The position numbers and the translations under genes are program-made. 16,353 nt of DNA from Desulfotomaculaceae bacterium (GTDB lineage: Bacteria; Bacillota; Desulfotomaculia; Desulfotomaculales; Pelotomaculaceae). Of this stretch, positions 1,113-14,093 are shown in pieces. The stretch is taken from assembly GCA_028704035.1 (NCBI GenBank), contig JAQVLS010000010.1, forward strand, positions 1-16,353. Direction: 5' to 3'. Numbering within the stretch: position 1 is the stretch's first letter; each line of letters starts with the position of its first letter. Below the pieces are notes generated by a model. It worked only from the letters and a program-made list of their open reading frames with translations. It was not told where the DNA came from and did not search any database.

Positions 1113-1856
1113 ATGGCTGTTGTTTCTATTATTCCGCTATTAATAATTTTGGTTCTGGTTGCCCTGCTGTCGACGAAAGGCAGTAGTATTTCCCTGCGGC
1201 ATAATTTACAATCCTGGCTCGTCACCGGCTATATCCTGCTGCTGCTGGCTGCTCCCGCTCTTATCCCGTTGCTGCCGGCGGAAAACCTGGCCGACGTGAA
1301 AATGAAAACAGTAAGTGAAATGGACATTGTTACGGAAATGGCCGGGCAGGGAGGTCTGTTCACGCAGGCGCTGCAGGGCAGGCCGGAACAGGCGGAGGGG
1401 GCTTTTGTGCTGGAGCAATGGCAGTTTCCCTGCCGGCAAGACAGCATAATTAACCTGGTGGAAAATCACGCATACAGAAACGGCGCCGCAGAAAACAGCG
1501 TCACCATAGTAGTTGAAAAAAAGGACAGGGCGGATGGCCTGATGGAAATTGTCAATTATGCCACCAGAACTATCGTCGGGGGGTTCGATTTCTCCGACAG
1601 GATGAGAATGCATGAAGTAAACCTGGACGGCAATGTTTTGCTGGTCACCGGGCCGGAACGCCTGAAGGTGGTGTTGGGCATGTTCAGCAGGGAATTTGCC
1701 GCCGGCCAGATATTGGGTGAGGGTTCCGCAATGTTTGAGCATAGCGGCGGGATTGGCCACACCGGGACTATCCCCGGTTCGCAGCTGCTCTATTTGCGTA
1801 TTCCCGCTGATGTGAAGGTGCAGTCGGAGATGCCTGTTGTCTATGTTGAAGAATGA
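1113..1856 (+). CDS. membrane-anchored protein of unknown family, third component of ABC operon
   Basis: A 247-residue protein I do not recognise. Two hydrophobic segments lie at about residues 3-20 and 33-53. They are followed by a ~190-residue soluble domain with alternating hydrophobic strands (for example SVTIVVEKKD and NVLLVTGPERLKVVL), suggesting a beta-rich globular domain. A hairpin of two helices would leave both ends on the same side of the membrane, so the soluble part may be cytoplasmic. The ATG directly follows the permease's TAA, with GGAGG about 10 bases upstream inside the permease gene, so the two are certainly co-translated. By position it is probably an accessory or sensing subunit of the ABC-2 exporter. 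That role is inference only. Its TGA stop overlaps an ATG at 1853 (ATGA). Confidence 0.6.
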   Translation: MAVVSIIPLLIILVLVALLSTKGSSISLRHNLQSWLVTGYILLLLAAPALIPLLPAENLADVKMKTVSEMDIVTEMAGQGGLFTQALQGRPEQAEGAFVLEQWQFPCRQDSIINLVENHAYRNGAAENSVTIVVEKKDRADGLMEIVNYATRTIVGGFDFSDRMRMHEVNLDGNVLLVTGPERLKVVLGMFSREFAAGQILGEGSAMFEHSGGIGHTGTIPGSQLLYLRIPADVKVQSEMPVVYVEE

Positions 1857-1903
1857 TAGCTGAAAATGTGCATAAACAAATATTTAAAAAGGTGGTTTTG
1901 CCT

Positions 1904-3706
1904 GTGCAAAGCAAAGGAAGTCTTCCCGCCCGGCAGGAAATTGCGGAACAATACAAGTGGAGGCTTGAGGATATCTATGCCGGTGACGAGATGTGGGAAC
2001 AGGATTTTCTGGCGGTAAAAAAGCTGAGCGAAGAGATTAACGAGTACCGGGGCAAGCTGGGGCAGTCGGCCGGCGCCCTGCTGGCAGTACTGCAGTTGGC
2101 GTACAGGCTGCGGGAGCTTAACGAGAGAGTTTATACCTACGCCCGCATGCGCCGGGACGAGGACAACGCCGACCCTGTCTACCAGGCGCTCACTGACCGG
2201 GCGGAAAACCTTCATACCCTGGCGCAGACGGCGCTGTCATTCATTGAACCGGAAATTCTGGCGATCCCGCCGAAAACTCTGGACCGCTACCGCCTGGAAG
2301 AGCCGGGCTTGACACTATACGGTTTCATCCTGGACGAATTGCTGCGGCAAAAAGACCACGTCCTTTCTGCCGCTGAGGAACGGATCATCGCCGGGGCAGG
2401 TGAGGTGGCCCAAGCGCCAGCCAATATTTTCAAGATGATCAACAATGCGGATATGACCTTCCCGGCGATCAAGGATGAAGAAGGAAATGAGGCGGAGGTC
2501 ACCCACGGCCGCTACATCCGGTTCATGGAAAGCCCGCACCGCCGGGTGCGCCGGGAGGCTTTCACCTCTCTCTACAGTTCCTACCGGAAGCTGCAGAACA
2601 CGCTGGCCGCCACTCTCGCCTCCAGCGTGAAAAAGGACGTGTTTTATGCCCGGGCGCGGAAATTCCCATCGGCTCTCTCCGCTTAACTTTTTGCCGACAA
2701 CATTTCCCCCCAGGTATATGACAACCTGATCCAAACGGTGCGCCGCAACCTGGACGCCATGCGCCGCTATGTAGCCCTGCGCAAGAAACTGCTGGGGCTG
2801 GATGAACTGCACATGTATGATTTATATGCCCCGGTGATCAAGGACGTCAAATGGGAGATCCCCTACCCGGAGGCAGTTGAACTGGTCAAAGACGGGCTTG
2901 CGCCCCTGGGCGCCTCCTATGGCGAAATTCTGTCGCGCGGGTTTACCGAAGGATGGGCGGATGTTTTCGAAAACAAGGGTAAAACCAGCGGCGCCTATTC
3001 CTGGGGCCCTTACGGGGTACACCCTTATATTCTGCTGAATTACCAGGACAACTTGAGCAATGTCTTCACTATCGCCCACGAAATGGGGCACGCCATGCAT
3101 TCTTATCTCGCTTACAGTGAGCAGCCCTACCCTTACGCCCATTACACCATCTTTACGGCCGAGGTGGCTTCTACCGTAAGCGAGTCCCTGCTCATGGACC
3201 ACCTGCTCAAGACAGCGAGCGAGCGGGGCAAAAAGCTCTACCTGCTTAACCACTACCTGGAACAGTTTCGCGGTACTGTTTTCCGGCAGACTATGTTCGC
3301 CGAATTTGAAAAAATTATTCACGAAAATATCGAACAGGGCCAGGCTCTGACCCCCGCCTTGCTGCGCCGGGTTTACCGCCGGCTCAATGCAGATTACTAC
3401 GGGCCGGAGATGGTTGTAGACGAGGATGTGGAATTCGAGTGGGCGCGCATTCCCCATTTTTATTCCGCCTTTTACGTTTACAAGTATGCCACCGGTTTTT
3501 CCGCGGCGGCAGCCATTACCCGCCGCATCCTGGAAGAAGGCGCATCTGCAGTAGACCGTTATTTGGGCTTTCTGAAAAAGGGAGGCAGTGACTATCCTCT
3601 GGACCTGTTAAAATCCGCTGGGGTTGACATGGCCTCGCCGGCGCCGGTACAGGAAGGGCTGGACTTGTTTGCCCGGCTTTTGGACCAGATGGAAGAACTA
3701 ACCTAA
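1904..3706 (+). pseudogene. pepF: oligoendopeptidase F (M3 family), interrupted by one in-frame TAA
   Basis: A zinc metallopeptidase that degrades short peptides in the cytoplasm. Read from the GTG at 1904 (AAAGGTGG ribosome site about 8 bases upstream) it has 600 codons, the normal PepF length. The start matches the family pattern LPARQEIAEQYKWRLEDIY. An ATG at 1853, overlapping the previous stop, is an alternative start. The M3 catalytic motif HEMGH is at residues 392-396, with the third zinc ligand probably the Glu at 420 in FTAEVAST. At codon 261 (2684-2686) a TAA interrupts the conserved stretch SALSA-stop-LFADNISPQVYDNL. The frame is unchanged on both sides and the downstream sequence looks well conserved. 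One C-to-A change from TCA (Ser) would explain it. It is either a very recent pseudogene, a sequencing error, or a read-through case. The downstream half (ATG at 2738) has the active site but lacks the N-terminal domain. Confidence 0.9.
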
Positions 3707-3732: not shown

Positions 3733-3799
3733 GTTTTGTATAAACACAGGTGTTTTGGGCCAAGCTTTAACCATATACCTTAAAATGGAAGGATGTTTT

Positions 3800-5515
3800 A
3801 TGGGCATTTTGAGGCGGAAGAGGCTGGCCTTTATTCTTGTTGTTTTCTTTATATGTTTTCTGGGGTTGGCCCTGCGGTTGTGGCGGATCCAGGTCGTTGA
3901 AGGGGAGGTCTATGCCTGTCTGGCGCTGGAGCAGGGCAGCCTCAGCGTTTCATTGGAAGACGCCCCCCGGGGCAGGTTTCTCGACCGCAATTTAGTCCCG
4001 CTGGACGCAGGAAAAACCGAAAACAGGGTGGTGGTTTTTCCTGAGGTCGTTAAGAATAAAGATAGGGCCGCCGCAGACCTGGCGCAGATCCTCGGTGTAA
4101 ATGAAGCAGCTGTAAAAAAACATCTTGCCGGCGGGCCCGTTTACCTGCCGTACAGCCTCACCCCTGAGCAGACCGGCCTGATCCGGCAAAAGAACTGGAC
4201 AGGCATCATGGCGCTGCCGGTACATTTAAGATACGGTGAAAATTCCCTAGCCGCACAAACACTGGGCCACTTGGGCAAGGTATCGACTTATGCGGAATAC
4301 GCCGATTTAGCAGCCAATTCCGCCAAAGTTTACCGCTATGACGACCTGGTGGGTAAAACAGGTTTGGAGAAGGTGTACGAAGAGGATTTGAAAGGCAACA
4401 GGCCGGAACGGGCGGTCAGGGTTTTCAAAGACGCTAAAGGAAAGCTGCTCGACGGCCCTGGATTTGAGATGGAAGAGCAGGCGCCGGACAGGGACAGGCG
4501 CGATGTGGTCCTTACCCTGGATGTCCGCATCCAGCAGGTTGTAGAAGATATTATGGACCGGCAGGTAGACAGGGGCGCGGTGGTGGTGATGGAAGCAGGC
4601 ACCGGAGATATCCTCGCTATGACCAGCCGGCCGAGTTTTGACCCGGCCCGCCCGGCGCAAAATATTGACGGCGGGGCGGAGGGGAGCTCTTTTGACCACT
4701 GTACCGCGCTCTACCAGCCAGGTTCTGTTTTTAAAATAGTAGTGGCCGCGGCAGCCCTTGAAGACAACCCGGCCAGATTGCACAGCAGTTTTACCTGCCT
4801 CGGTGAAAATGAGAGCTTGATGCATTGCTGGAAACTTGGCGGACATGGCCGGATTAATTTTACAAGCGCCTTTGCCCAGTCGTGCAACCCCACTTTCGCC
4901 AGGATCGGGCTGGACCTGGGAGCGCAGCAGCTGATTGAATATGCCCGGCGGCTCGGCCTGGACAACCAGAACATTATCGGTTACCCGATGGGTTATGATC
5001 CGCGACAGGACCTTAGCCTAATCGGGGAACCTTACAACCTGGTCAACTGCAGCATTGGCCAGGGGCCGGTACTGGTTACGCCGCTGCAGGTAGCGGCGAT
5101 GACGAACACCATCGTTTCCGGCGGGATATACAGAGAGCCGCGCCTGGTTAAGGAAATCCGCAGCAGCAGCAGCGGCAGTGTCGCGCAGGAGTTTTATGCA
5201 GACGCCGGCAACCGGGCTGTATCACCGGACACTGCCGAAATACTGCGCAGTCTGATGGAATCAGTAGTTGACACCGGTACCGGGACAGAGGCGGCAGTAA
5301 CGGTCTTTGGCAGCGCCGGCAAGACAGGTTCGGCCCAGGTGGGCAGCAGCGGGGAGCAAACAGACGCCTGGTTTACCGGGTACGCTCCCCGAAAAAACCC
5401 GCGCTATGTGGTAACTGTACTGGTGGAAGGCGGCGCCAGCGGCAGTGAATCCGCCGCCCCCATCTTCCGCGAAATAATGGAGAAAATAACTGGGGGACAG
5501 TCCCCTGTACTTTAG
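3800..5515 (+). CDS. class B penicillin-binding protein (PBP2/SpoVD/FtsI-type transpeptidase)
   Basis: A 571-residue enzyme that cross-links peptidoglycan outside the membrane. An N-terminal membrane anchor spans about residues 9-29 (LAFILVVFFICFLGLALRLW). It is followed by a dimerisation/non-catalytic domain (residues ~50-240, including APRGRFLDRN) and the transpeptidase domain. All three active-site motifs are present: SVFK at 309-312, SCN at 361-363 and KTG at 508-510. There are no C-terminal PASTA domains. I chose the ATG at 3800, preceded by GAAGGATG about 7 bases away; an in-frame start at 3755 has no site. The gene stands alone, with no mur or division genes next to it, so a sporulation or accessory cell-wall role is possible but not shown. 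Its last codons and stop lie inside a large inverted repeat, so the C-terminal residues GGQSPVL are repeat-encoded. Confidence 0.92.
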   Translation: MGILRRKRLAFILVVFFICFLGLALRLWRIQVVEGEVYACLALEQGSLSVSLEDAPRGRFLDRNLVPLDAGKTENRVVVFPEVVKNKDRAAADLAQILGVNEAAVKKHLAGGPVYLPYSLTPEQTGLIRQKNWTGIMALPVHLRYGENSLAAQTLGHLGKVSTYAEYADLAANSAKVYRYDDLVGKTGLEKVYEEDLKGNRPERAVRVFKDAKGKLLDGPGFEMEEQAPDRDRRDVVLTLDVRIQQVVEDIMDRQVDRGAVVVMEAGTGDILAMTSRPSFDPARPAQNIDGGAEGSSFDHCTALYQPGSVFKIVVAAAALEDNPARLHSSFTCLGENESLMHCWKLGGHGRINFTSAFAQSCNPTFARIGLDLGAQQLIEYARRLGLDNQNIIGYPMGYDPRQDLSLIGEPYNLVNCSIGQGPVLVTPLQVAAMTNTIVSGGIYREPRLVKEIRSSSSGSVAQEFYADAGNRAVSPDTAEILRSLMESVVDTGTGTEAAVTVFGSAGKTGSAQVGSSGEQTDAWFTGYAPRKNPRYVVTVLVEGGASGSESAAPIFREIMEKITGGQSPVL

Positions 5516-5535
5516 TACAGGGGACTGTCCCCCAG
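5490..5535. repeat. perfect 22-bp inverted repeat, probable bidirectional terminator
   Basis: Arms at 5490-5511 and 5514-5535 are perfectly complementary with a two-base centre. Each arm contains its own 13-base palindrome: GGGGACAGTCCCC at 5493-5505 and GGGGACTGTCCCC at 5520-5532. The element can therefore form one long hairpin or two short ones. It covers the stop codon of the penicillin-binding protein gene and ends 4 bases from the stop of the convergent glutaredoxin gene. There is no long T-tract, so it is not a classical intrinsic terminator. It is the longest member of the REP-like family in this window. Confidence 0.8.
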
Positions 5536-5538
5536 CAG

Positions 5539-5769
5539 TTAGATTAGCTTTTCCAGCTCATTTTTGTTGAAACCCACTACCACCTGTTCTCCAACCGTGA
5601 TCGTGGGCACTGCCATTCGCCCTGTTTTTTTGATCATTTCTTCCCGTGCGGCTTCGTTTTCAGCAACATTTAACTCCTGGTATTTTATTCCCTTTTGTGA
5701 GAGGAACTCCTTCACGTGAGTGCAGTGAGGTCAGGTAGGGGTTGTATAAACTGTAACATTTTCATGCAT
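5539..5769 (-). CDS. glutaredoxin-like selenoprotein with UxxC active site (UGA at codon 13)
   Basis: On the minus strand, an ATG at 5769 with a GGAGGTG ribosome site six bases upstream (5776-5782) opens a 76-codon frame ending in TAA at 5539-5541. It contains one in-frame TGA (5731-5733). Read as selenocysteine (U), the N-terminus is MHENVTVYTTPTUPHCTHVK. This is a thioredoxin fold with beta1, the redox motif UPHC (residues 13-16), alpha1 (VKEFLSQKG), beta2, alpha2, the cis-proline TGRMAVPTI (residues ~49-57), and the GFNKNELEKL C-terminal helix. It resembles the short NrdH/YruB-like glutaredoxins (usually CPWC or CPYC, about 75-80 residues). TGA falls exactly on the catalytic Cys, the rest is intact, and a SECIS-like hairpin follows. 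It should be a cytosolic thiol/selenol oxidoreductase. The alternative is a nonsense-mutated glutaredoxin (TGC or TGT to TGA). Selenocysteine machinery is not in the window. Confidence 0.8.
5697..5715 (-). promoter_or_regulatory. candidate bacterial SECIS hairpin
   Basis: On the minus strand, GTGAAGGAGTTCCTCTCAC begins 16 bases after the UGA. It folds as a seven-pair stem (GTGAAGG with CC-T-TCAC, one C bulged) with the apical tetraloop AGTT. Bacterial SECIS elements need a short stem-loop just after the UGA with a G in a small apical loop, about 16-37 bases downstream. Here the G is base 24 after the UGA and is followed by U, as in the GU recognised by SelB in E. coli fdhF. I folded this by eye. 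Confidence 0.6.
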
Positions 5770-5820
5770 GATTAACACCTCCGATTTATGATTATTTTTT
5801 TATTATTCATTTACGCCAGG

Positions 5821-5938
5821 TGAAATATACGCTAGTGGAAGGAGCCGGTTTTCCCTGCCGGTAATTTCAGATGTAGGGTTGGCTCGATAATTGAAACAAC
5901 TATCGCGAGCTGGATTGATGACAGTACCCATTCCCTAC
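5821..5938. other. possible structured intergenic RNA or repeat remnant
   Basis: This is part of the gene-free stretch 5770-6113. Two nested structures can be drawn. The first is TGAAAT (5821-5826) with ATTTCA (5864-5869), closing over a GC-rich CCGG...CCGG segment. The second is GTAGGG (from 5873) with CCCTAC (to 5937), enclosing a hairpin of GCTCGATA with TATCGCGAGC. No known riboswitch class is recognised. Nothing coding is seen here on either strand. Confidence 0.3.
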
Positions 5939-5964
5939 GTCCCCACCGTTATTTAAAGAATTGG

Positions 5965-9749: not shown

Positions 9750-10289
9750 TTGAACGAGGATACTATTGGGAAAGGTTATGTCCAGGTTTACACCGGAAAC
9801 TGCAAGGGCAAGACCACGGCGGCACTGGGCCTGGCCTTCCGGGCCATGGGGCGGGGCCTGAAAACCTACGTGGGCCAGTTTATGAAAGGACAGAAATACG
9901 CCGAGCTGAAATCAGCAGAAATGTGCCGGCCATACATTACCATCGAGCAGTACGGCAAGGACACGCTGATCCACGTCAAAAACCCGCCGGAGGCCGAAGA
10001 TGTACAGATGGCCCGGGAAGGCCTGACTAAAGCAAAAAACGCTATGCTTTCCGGCACATACGGCATCGTTGTCTTTGATGAAATCAACACCGCCCATTTC
10101 TTTCACCTGATTACCACCGAAGAAATGCTGGAAGTGATCAGGTCCAAGCCGGCCGGCGTGGAAGTGATTTTCACCGGCCGGTATGCGCCGCCGGAGATCA
10201 TTGAGGCGGCGGATCTGGTGACCGAGATGACGGAAGTGAAGCATTATTATGAAAAAGGTGTGCCGGCCCGGGACGGCATCGAGCGGTAA
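9750..10289 (+). CDS. cobO: corrinoid (cob(I)yrinic acid a,c-diamide) adenosyltransferase
   Basis: A 179-residue cytosolic enzyme of the CobO/CobP/BtuR family. It transfers the adenosyl group of ATP to the cobalt of reduced corrinoids, making coenzyme B12 forms. The P-loop is VYTGNCKGKTTAALGLAFRA (GNCKGKTT at residues 16-23; the family norm is GxGKGKTT, so Cys replaces Gly at position 18). The Walker-B-like segment IVVFDEIN is at ~106-113 (Asp110, Glu111). VIFTGRYAPPEIIEAADLVTEM matches the family's C-terminal part. The TTG start at 9750 follows AAGGGGGG by seven bases; 28 bases separate it from the propeller gene, consistent with one transcript. The C-terminus ends DGIER, a few residues shorter than some relatives. 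With the B12 riboswitch upstream, feedback control by the product is likely, through the intervening ~2 kb. Confidence 0.93.
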   Translation: MNEDTIGKGYVQVYTGNCKGKTTAALGLAFRAMGRGLKTYVGQFMKGQKYAELKSAEMCRPYITIEQYGKDTLIHVKNPPEAEDVQMAREGLTKAKNAMLSGTYGIVVFDEINTAHFFHLITTEEMLEVIRSKPAGVEVIFTGRYAPPEIIEAADLVTEMTEVKHYYEKGVPARDGIER

Positions 10290-11277: not shown

Positions 11278-11838
11278 TTACAGCACAAGCGTGGTCAGTC
11301 TGATAATCGTTTCCGCCATGAAGCGCGGCGATTTATTCATATCGTCATTGAGCCATTTTTGGATCGCCCCAATACAACCTGTGAGGGTAAAGGCGTAAAT
11401 ATACTCGGCGTCCTCTTTGGAGATTGTGCCACCCCTGGTAAGGTCGCTGATGATTTTTTCATATACGAGCATAAGCACACGTTTTTGAAAATTCAAGTCT
11501 CCGCGCTCGCTGAGCAGGAGTTTACAAAGTCGTGCGTTTTCCTGGATGCATTCAAATATTTGCTCGACCATGTCAACCGGAACAATAGGCAAGTCATTCT
11601 GAGTAAAGGCGGAAAGATGCATTTCTATATTTTCAAACAACTGATTTTGTATTTTTTCGATTAAGTCATATTGGTCGTTATAATGTGCATAAAAGGTCGA
11701 GCGGTTGATGTCGGCATCTTCGCAGATTTCTTTAATGGAAATTTGCGAGATGTCTTTTTTTTCGAGCAGATTGATGAAGCTCTCCCTGAGCACCATCTTT
11801 GTATATTTGATTCTTCTATCAACTTTTTTGCTTCCCAT
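11278..11838 (-). CDS. TetR/AcrR family transcriptional regulator
   Basis: 186 residues from the ATG at 11838 (GGGG six bases upstream); a GTG at 11850 would add four residues. The N-terminal helix-turn-helix domain (residues ~8-55) is classical: KYTKMVLRESFINLLEKKDI, ISIKEICEDADINRSTFYAHY. The second, ligand-binding half is helical and resembles the TetR C-terminal domain of Firmicute regulators (DiHydroxyacetone-kinase-regulator-like), ending FMAETIIRLTTLVL. The gene is divergent from the MMPL exporter gene with a 197-base intergenic space carrying palindromes, so it most likely represses that exporter operon and itself. Inducer unknown. Codon use and the AT-rich surroundings are similar to the neighbouring exporter genes. 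Confidence 0.9.
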   Translation of the reverse strand: MGSKKVDRRIKYTKMVLRESFINLLEKKDISQISIKEICEDADINRSTFYAHYNDQYDLIEKIQNQLFENIEMHLSAFTQNDLPIVPVDMVEQIFECIQENARLCKLLLSERGDLNFQKRVLMLVYEKIISDLTRGGTISKEDAEYIYAFTLTGCIGAIQKWLNDDMNKSPRFMAETIIRLTTLVL

Positions 11839-11901
11839 TGTGTTCCCCACAGTTTTTTAGAATATGTTAGTTATCATACATTATACTCAGTGTTTGTTTA
11901 A

Positions 11902-11931
11902 TATCAATCATATGATAAAAATCTGATTGAT
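11902..11931. promoter_or_regulatory. candidate TetR operator palindromes
   Basis: TATCAATCATATGATA (11902-11917) is a palindrome of TATCA-N6-TGATA and contains the perfect 10-base palindrome ATCATATGAT. In addition, ATCAATC (11903-11909) is repeated inverted as GATTGAT (11925-11931). The cluster lies just upstream of the exporter promoter and between the divergent genes, where a TetR repressor would bind. Confidence 0.5.
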
Positions 11932-11958
11932 GACTTCACAGCACAGTATTATTATAAT
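11928..11958 (+). promoter_or_regulatory. promoter of the MMPL exporter operon
   Basis: A perfect TATAAT at 11953-11958 lies 78 bases before the MMPL start. The -35 is weak: TTGATG starting at 11927 would give a 20-base spacer. The -35 region overlaps the right arm of the candidate operator, fitting repression by TetR. Confidence 0.5.
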
Positions 11959-12035
11959 GCAATTGTGGCTGTTTAACAACACCGTGTTTAATAAAAAGGG
12001 CGCTGCGCATGGTTTAAGGGGGGACTTTCCATCCC

Positions 12036-14093
12036 ATGAAAAGGTTTTCGCAACTTATAACAAAACACAAAGGAATCGTGCTTACCATATTCCTGGTGCT
12101 GGCAGCGGTAAGCATGCTGCCGGCTGTTTTTGTTCCAGTCAACTATGACATGGTGGATTATCTGCCAAAAGACGCCCATTCCACCACAGCCATTTCGATC
12201 ATCAAGAAAGAATTCTTGGGAGATACACCCAACGCAAGAGTGATGGTTACAAACGTCACCGTACAGGAGGCCCTTGCGTATAAAGAAAAATTGTCCGCTA
12301 TTGACGGCGTTACTGCGGTAAAATGGCTGGATGATGTCCTCGGCAAGGATGTACTGATGGCCACGCCCCTTGAGTTTTTGGACGTTTCCGTGACAAAAAA
12401 ATACTATAAAGATGGTCATGCCTTGCTCGGCGTATCCATTGAAAGCGGCAAGGAATCTCCGGCAGTAAATGCGATCTACGGCCTGATTGGAGAGAATGAC
12501 GCCGTGGCGGGTGACGCCGTTAATACTGCCGTTACGCAGGGCATGGCAGTATCCGAGGTCTTAAACGCAATGGCTATCCTGCTCCCGGTGATCCTGATCA
12601 TCCTCATCCTTGCCACTACATCGTGGATAGAGCCGTTGTTATTCCTATTTACCATCGGTATCGCTGTGATCATTAACATGGGGACTTCTGCTTTATTTGG
12701 TGAAATATCCTTTATCACACAAACCGTCAGCCCAATTTTACAGCTTGCCGTTTCTCTGGATTACACCATTTTCCTGCTGCACAGCTTTAATAAATACCGG
12801 GCGTTCAGCGAACCGCGTGAGGCTATGCAGCTTGCTATGAAGCGGGCAATGCCAACGGTAGCAGCAAGCGCCGCTACGACGGTGATTGGTTTTTCGGCCT
12901 TGCTGTTTATGCGCTTTGGTATCGGATCGGATCTGGGTATTCAGCTGGTCAAGGGTGTGGTTCTGAGTTTTCTGTCCGTGATGATTTTCCTGCCCGCCTT
13001 AACCCTTACCGGCTACAGGCTTATTGATAAAACAAGGCACAAAAACATTGTGCCCGGCTGCCATAAAGTTGGGAAAGGGCTGATGAGGATCGGAATACCA
13101 ATGCTGATATTGGCGCTGATCGTGATCATACCGTGCTTTCTGGCCCAGTCAAATACCGGCTTTATGTACGGCATGGGCGGCGTAGCGGAAAGCTCCCGGG
13201 CCGGGAAAAACACGGCGTTGATTGAAACAGCCTTTGGCCGGGAAAATCCGCTGGCGCTTTTGGCGCCAAAAGAAACCCCGGGCAAGGAGGCCGCGCTTTG
13301 TGATGAGCTTTCCTCCATTCCTCATGTAACTGACGTGGTTTCCTTTGTAACGGCGGTGGGCGCTGAGATCCCGCCGCAATATATTCCCCAGGAAGTGCTG
13401 GATCAATTTTATTCCGGGCATTACGCGCGGATCATCCTGTACACCGATTCCCCTGAGGAGGGAGAACAGACCTTTGCTACCGTGCAAACGGTACTGGATA
13501 CCGCCGGGCGGCATTACGACACCTATTATCTGGCCGGGCCAAGCGCAACGTTATTTGATATGAAAGGCATGGTGGAGGCGGACATAAGGATTGTCAACCT
13601 GGTGGCCATTGTCGGCATTTTTATCGTGATCCTGTTGACGTTCCGCTCGCTTACCCTGCCGATATTCCTGGTGTTTACCATTGAAACGGCGATATGGATC
13701 AACCTTTCCTTTGCGTATTTTACTAATAATACATTGAGCTTTATCGGCTATCTGATCATCAGTACGGTGCAGCTCGGCGCCACGGTGGACTATGCTATCC
13801 TGCTGGCCAACCACTATATGACCGACAGAAAAAGCCTGCCAAAAAAGGAAGCGATGCAAAAAACCCTCTCCGGCAACCTGACGGCCATTCTCATTTCAGC
13901 CGGCATCCTTGCCTCAGCAGGGTTTATCCTGGCGGCCACGTCCGGCAATCCCATCGTCTCGGAGTTGGGCACACTGCTGGGCCGGGGGACGGTCTTATCC
14001 TTTGTCATGGTAGTCAGCGTATTGCCCGCGCTGCTGATTGTTTTTGATCGGGTGATTGAAAAAACAACGTTTAAAAACGGCTTCCATAGATAA
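12036..14093 (+). CDS. MMPL/RND-superfamily exporter
   Basis: A 685-residue membrane protein, probably using the proton gradient to export a lipid-like or toxic compound. The layout is two repeats. Each has one transmembrane helix (residues ~12-31 and ~352-370), an outside domain, and a five-helix bundle (~175-320 and ~510-670), for a total of about 12 helices. The characteristic acidic residues of the helix-4 motifs are present: VSLDYTIFLLHSFNKYR (Asp242) and ATVDYAILLANHYM (Asp585). The ATG at 12036 follows AAGGGGGG by about 12 bases. It is shorter than mycobacterial MmpL proteins and like the Firmicute YdfJ-type group. The heptad-repeat protein gene follows 36 bases later and must be co-transcribed. 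Regulation is probably by the divergent TetR protein. Confidence 0.9.
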   Translation: MKRFSQLITKHKGIVLTIFLVLAAVSMLPAVFVPVNYDMVDYLPKDAHSTTAISIIKKEFLGDTPNARVMVTNVTVQEALAYKEKLSAIDGVTAVKWLDDVLGKDVLMATPLEFLDVSVTKKYYKDGHALLGVSIESGKESPAVNAIYGLIGENDAVAGDAVNTAVTQGMAVSEVLNAMAILLPVILIILILATTSWIEPLLFLFTIGIAVIINMGTSALFGEISFITQTVSPILQLAVSLDYTIFLLHSFNKYRAFSEPREAMQLAMKRAMPTVAASAATTVIGFSALLFMRFGIGSDLGIQLVKGVVLSFLSVMIFLPALTLTGYRLIDKTRHKNIVPGCHKVGKGLMRIGIPMLILALIVIIPCFLAQSNTGFMYGMGGVAESSRAGKNTALIETAFGRENPLALLAPKETPGKEAALCDELSSIPHVTDVVSFVTAVGAEIPPQYIPQEVLDQFYSGHYARIILYTDSPEEGEQTFATVQTVLDTAGRHYDTYYLAGPSATLFDMKGMVEADIRIVNLVAIVGIFIVILLTFRSLTLPIFLVFTIETAIWINLSFAYFTNNTLSFIGYLIISTVQLGATVDYAILLANHYMTDRKSLPKKEAMQKTLSGNLTAILISAGILASAGFILAATSGNPIVSELGTLLGRGTVLSFVMVVSVLPALLIVFDRVIEKTTFKNGFHR

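Follow-up and report, generated by a model that had tools for sequence, protein, structure and literature searches.

Glutaredoxins that carry selenocysteine (Sec) are a described selenoprotein family, assigned to PF00462 and recognised by a UxxC motif in the available portions of two reports (PMC13188914, PMC9312934), and the accessible part of a survey lists glutaredoxins for Moorella thermoacetica, Alkaliphilus metalliredigenes (two) and Geobacter sulfurreducens (PMC1794560). The nearest protein of solved structure to the one described here is Grx1 of Clostridium oremlandii (cGrx1; residues 3–76, E value 5e-20), for which PDB entries 7c10, 7c12 and 7c13 are available, 7C10 being linked to PMC7642778 through a search listing. 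In the sections of that report that are available, the authors give cGrx1 a U(or C)PXC site, state that it is natively a selenoprotein, propose it as a reductant of a selenoprotein MsrA, and name glutathione as the reductant of cGrx1 itself. The consensus for bacterial SECIS elements (bSECIS), as given in the accessible part of PMC13188914, comprises a loop of 3–9 nt, a stem of 4–16 bp, a G within the first two loop positions, a distance of 16–37 nt from UGA to loop, and a minimum free energy of -7.5 kcal/mol or lower.

A glutaredoxin frame with an internal TGA codon

The window, a 16,353-nucleotide stretch of DNA from a Desulfotomaculaceae bacterium, contains a minus-strand gene that, from sequence comparisons, almost certainly encodes a functional selenoprotein glutaredoxin with Sec at residue 13 (Table 1). 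The first-pass annotation had described a 76-codon glutaredoxin frame with a single TGA at the start of a CxxC motif, a GGAGG ribosome-binding site, and a stem-loop with G in an AGUU loop 16–34 bases beyond the UGA; the coordinates and translation agree with this description, and the site and the stem-loop are found where it placed them. The TGA is the sole internal stop of the frame and, when it is read as Sec, the protein takes the form MHENVTVYTTPT-U-PHC...TGRMAVPTI... The predicted glutaredoxin fold is plain, with the curated cut-offs passed, a CxxC-type site (UPHC) and a cis-Pro motif (VPTI); the product scores 75.4 bits against Pfam PF00462 (cut-off 22.9) and 101.4 bits against NCBIfam TIGR02196 YruB (cut-off 88.55), and narrowly passes NF041212 Uxx-star (68.6 against a cut-off of 66). 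The second cysteine of the motif, Cys16, is present in all 47 distinct aligned TGA genes of the order, and GGAGG stands ahead of the start in 12 of 12 rows in an alignment of close loci. The database entries examined for this gene and its close kin contain either a stub of 58–59 residues that lacks the active site, or a tryptophan at the site.

Table 1. Positions of the glutaredoxin gene and associated features in the window.
Feature	Position	Strand	Description
Glutaredoxin gene	5769-5542 + TAA 5541-5539	minus	76 codons, translation with TGA as Sec
Predicted Sec codon	5731..5733	minus	in-frame TGA for residue 13; opens the UPHC active site
Presumed resolving cysteine	5722..5724	minus	codon TGC; Cys16 of UPHC
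Ribosome-binding site	5778..5782	minus	GGAGG, 8 nt upstream of ATG
Predicted bacterial SECIS hairpin	5697..5715	minus	5' arm 5715-5709, loop AGTT 5708-5705, 3' arm 5704-5697, bulged C at 5701
Near-perfect palindrome	5486..5542	both	lies where the glutaredoxin and penicillin-binding protein-like genes converge

The hairpin (GTGAAGG-AGTT-CCTcTCAC, with seven base pairs and one bulge) spans nucleotides 16–34 after the TGA and agrees with the bSECIS geometry, with a loop AGUU, a G at loop position 2, and 22 nt from UGA to loop. It falls short of the bSECIS energy limit, with -5.1 kcal/mol alone and -6.6 kcal/mol within 36–39 nt, compared to -7.5 kcal/mol. When the 41 nt after the TGA are folded, its pair probability is 0.11 because of rival pairings with bases just past the TGA codon. 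A ribosome halted at UGA should cover the bases just after the codon. Taken alone the window hairpin is weak evidence for Sec, and the case is therefore decided by the relatives.

The Sec machinery that the first-pass annotation looked to in the same genome is largely there, with selC (tRNA-Sec, 71.9 bits), selB and selA (612 bits) all found; only selD was not found in this assembly of 1.67 Mb in 250 contigs, which is 83.86% complete. We take the missing selD as a probable assembly gap, and note that, of the 21 genomes searched for relatives (the window genome among them), 19 have selD over the cut-off. Each of the 21 SelD rows over the cut-off (L074–L077 and others) itself contains one in-frame TGA. 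SelB matches occur in 110 of the 113 genomes of the order, so that SelB gives no discrimination between TGA and other genomes and was dropped for this purpose; among the 47 TGA genomes a SelB match is absent from two (G029, G093).

The glutaredoxin gene converges on a penicillin-binding protein-like gene (3755–5515; 351 bits against a PBP2 model, below the cut-off of 455). Each strand of the palindrome between them scores as one long hairpin, and an 18-base piece has one further copy, on contig C191 of the same genome; it is probably a shared terminator, a small mobile repeat being the alternative. None of the eleven Rfam matches near the gene reaches its gathering score, and they were set aside as chance, the best three (to miRNA families) arising because of this palindrome, and a structured-looking stretch upstream of the gene (5820–5960) was dropped since it is not conserved in 12 close loci. 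At one relative's locus (L018) the order is penicillin-binding protein, HTH regulator, thioredoxin, and then a convergent Sec glutaredoxin, with partial versions of this arrangement at L095, L064, L050 and L088. Clustering of open reading frames at 50 whole-genome loci of the order places a thioredoxin cluster in the flanks of 17 and the regulator in those of 23, with some clusters representing antisense frames; five loci were inspected gene by gene. Neither the thioredoxin nor the HTH regulator is present at the corresponding spot in the window. Because the glutaredoxin gene lies on the other strand, these genes share a neighbourhood and do not form an operon.

Elsewhere in the window, an oligoendopeptidase F-like frame (1853–3706, plus strand) has an in-frame TAA at 2684–2686, with a TIGR00181 match on its second half; either the gene is broken or the assembly is wrong here, and the TAA is not a Sec codon. 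A cobalamin riboswitch (RF00174, 7670–7850, plus strand, 93.2 bits) precedes a corrinoid adenosyltransferase gene (9750–10289) by about 2 kb, and within 11278–14093 a minus-strand TetR-like regulator gene with a weak DhaS match is divergent from a plus-strand gene for an MMPL/RND-type transporter.

TGA and Cys relatives, the hairpin core, and alternative readings

Of the 33 relatives identified in an initial scan of genome contigs, 12 (Pelotomaculum and kin) have TGA at residue 13 and 21 have Cys. A search of 113 genomes of the order gave matches in 87, many of them weak, and the 54 strongest places (E values down to 1.1e-19) were aligned; 48 of these, in 47 of the 113 genomes, have TGA at residue 13, and the remaining six have Cys [L063 (G094), L092 (G111) and L178–L181 (G081–G084)]. 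Some of the weaker matches outside this alignment also have TGA. The TGA form is present in cultured Pelotomaculum strains, and a single-contig genome, G095, contains two TGA copies of the glutaredoxin. The protein is conserved on both sides of the TGA across the 48 loci. Among 398 sampled genomes of the phylum, 84 places in 81 genomes match at an E value of 1e-15 or better; four were already in the alignment and the other 80 were added. Relatives with Sec or Cys had been expected to align at residue 13, and among all 155 aligned loci 90 have TGA there and 65 code for Cys. The site is Cys in protein P0003, which is 88% identical to the window protein, and genome G456 encodes both forms, L161 with TGA and the hairpin core and L146 with Cys and no core. 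Distant glutaredoxin-like matches in five genomes (G091, G092, G021, G019 and G024; 37–44% identity) have one in-frame TGA each, and perhaps belong to other Sec redoxin families.

The hairpin expected to be conserved with a true Sec codon is retained in most genes with TGA and missing from most with Cys. Its core, GTGAARGAGTWYCTYTC, is present at 81 of the 90 TGA loci compared to 3 of the 65 Cys loci. For the first 111 loci the corresponding figures are 74 of 79 and 2 of 32; for the 44 further loci, which are mostly more distant, include the four Cys places of G081–G084 together with the lower-scoring half of the matches in the phylum, and took no part in defining the core, they are 7 of 11 and 1 of 33. 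Five TGA loci of the first set lack the core, two through a stem mismatch (L071, L079), one with CTG in place of GTG (L115), and two with no loop G (L087, L110). In L087 and L110 codon 21 is GAT (Asp), whereas GAG occupies this position in 76 of the 78 distinct TGA genes; this accounts for the loop without G, in which these hairpins depart from the published bacterial SECIS rule. In the distant set the TGA loci without the core are L157, L166, L169 and L173, which are candidates for separate gains, another SECIS form, or errors.

Codon choice in the hairpin region is nearly invariant. The first 111 loci include 78 distinct TGA genes (79 before removal of one identical row; one Cys row was also dropped, leaving 31 of 32). 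Their codons are GTG for Val19 (77 of 77), GAG for Glu21 (76 of 76), CTT or CTC for Leu23 (78 of 78) and TCN for Ser24 (78 of 78), whereas outside the hairpin region these genes contain GAA 228 times against 85 for GAG, and their Val, Leu and Ser codons are mixed. The core matches 73 of these 78 genes; with synonymous codons shuffled within each gene over 500 rounds the mean is 6.7 and the maximum 17, a comparison with no correction for relatedness that, like the codon counts, covers the first 111 loci. In the order set, with 47 distinct TGA genes after one identical row was removed from 48, codons 19–24 rank first among all six-codon stretches in their ratio of observed to expected codon homozygosity.

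These observations bear directly on other ways of reading the gene. A lone stop in an otherwise intact frame can arise in a pseudogene, or by a sequencing error for TGC or TGT, and both the pepF-like frame of the same window, broken by a single TAA, and the failure to find selD in this genome would sit well with such an origin; however, the same TGA occupies the same codon at 48 loci spread over 47 genomes, one of them the single-contig G095, with the protein conserved on either side and a constrained hairpin after it, and we regard a pseudogene or error as extremely improbable. That TGA is instead read as tryptophan or another ordinary residue, through a change of code or general read-through, might be suggested by the W printed at the site in predicted proteins P0002 and P0004–P0007. 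This too has next to no probability, as the 48 TGA loci of the order end in 29 TAA, 10 TAG and 9 TGA codons, all 65 aligned loci without TGA have Cys at the site, the Sec machinery is present, and the hairpin tracks the TGA. TGA is still a stop codon in the order.

It is likewise very unlikely that translation starts after the TGA and that only a 58-residue fragment from codon 19 is made, even though products of 58–59 residues are present in databases [e.g. P0009 (window) and PTH_1073 (P. thermopropionicum)] and codon 19 is fixed as GTG, a possible start codon. Such a fragment would be without the first strand and the entire active site, the part before the TGA is conserved along with its GGAGG throughout the 12 close rows, and a start codon offers no explanation for the fixed synonymous choices at codons 21, 23 and 24. 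All three readings were rejected, and the earlier interpretation as a selenoprotein glutaredoxin is supported.

Exchange between Sec and Cys

Two trees were built after identical rows were removed (111 reduced to 109, and 155 to 153). In the first, of 109 rows, a branch with support 95/87 sets all 78 TGA rows and 5 Cys rows apart from the rest, and six label changes are needed, at least four of them forced. One gain with five reversions, as the 109-row tree had suggested, was dropped, since the 153-row tree needs 14 changes. This enlarged tree, with 73 columns and many unresolved forks, has 14 undirected Sec/Cys label changes, of which at least seven are forced by well-supported branches; a branch supported at 100/98 has 87 of the 89 TGA rows and 16 Cys rows on one side. 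The TGA rows L157 and L166, which have no core, are located on the Cys-rich side.

The Cys genes found among TGA kin differ in the state of their hairpins. The core is intact in L063, L111 and L142, the loop G alone is changed in L104, the stem is lost in part in L135, and the hairpin is eroded in L092 and L125. SelB is still present in at least two hosts of Cys genes with SECIS relics, G094 and G111, where Sec would thus have been abandoned while the machinery was retained. On balance we favour the view that this glutaredoxin lineage is a natural Sec/Cys exchange series, in which Cys genes carry SECIS relics at successive stages; if so, the relics could date the pace of SECIS decay. The Cys forms whose hairpins are intact or decaying open Sec/Cys exchange to testing.

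Proposed function and comparison with described selenoproteins

In the mechanism that we propose, a ribosome would reach the UGA at codon 13, SelB and its Sec-tRNA-Sec would be bound to the hairpin immediately downstream, and Sec would be inserted as the attacking residue of the UPHC site. By analogy with C. oremlandii Grx1, and from the motif itself, the selenolate of Sec13 would then attack a disulfide or similar bond of a client and Cys16 would resolve the mixed bond. Clients may include a peroxiredoxin or a methionine sulfoxide reductase. The oxidised glutaredoxin would most likely be recycled via a thioredoxin-reductase-like flavoprotein and not by glutathione; this route is favoured because a thioredoxin reductase is over the cut-off in the window genome and no GshF-type glutathione enzyme (TIGR01435) is over the cut-off in the 21 genomes, where there is one weak match (G061), the search having covered the GshF type of glutathione enzyme. 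A role as an electron carrier of the thioredoxin system would follow, and the gene probably adds a selenium-dependent redox carrier to these anaerobes.

The literature searched, which excludes most subscription journals, contains nothing on Pelotomaculum together with a glutaredoxin-like selenoprotein. The word Pelotomaculum is absent from the available portions of PMC13188914 and PMC9312934, and within the same literature the window gene is not reported in the accessible parts of PMC2432076 or PMC1794560. The Desulfotomaculum reducens entry in the available part of the latter survey has no glutaredoxin, a difference from the window genome. The reach of the Sec form across the order and the staged decay in the Cys forms may be the less-known part of these findings.

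The gene itself is an additional Sec glutaredoxin within an already known selenoprotein kind, as had been anticipated when the family was thought perhaps not new. The Pfam family and UxxC motif given for Sec glutaredoxins in the portions of prokaryotic surveys available are both common to the window protein. In contrast, UXX-star families 1 and 2 have the motifs UxxT and GxGU, as described in the accessible part of PMC13188914, whereas the window protein has UxxC with a second Cys. The closest comparison is with cGrx1, whose host is of another lineage and whose solved dithiol form has CPHC where the window protein has UPHC; since this nearest solved protein is a native selenoprotein, the window gene belongs to a known kind.
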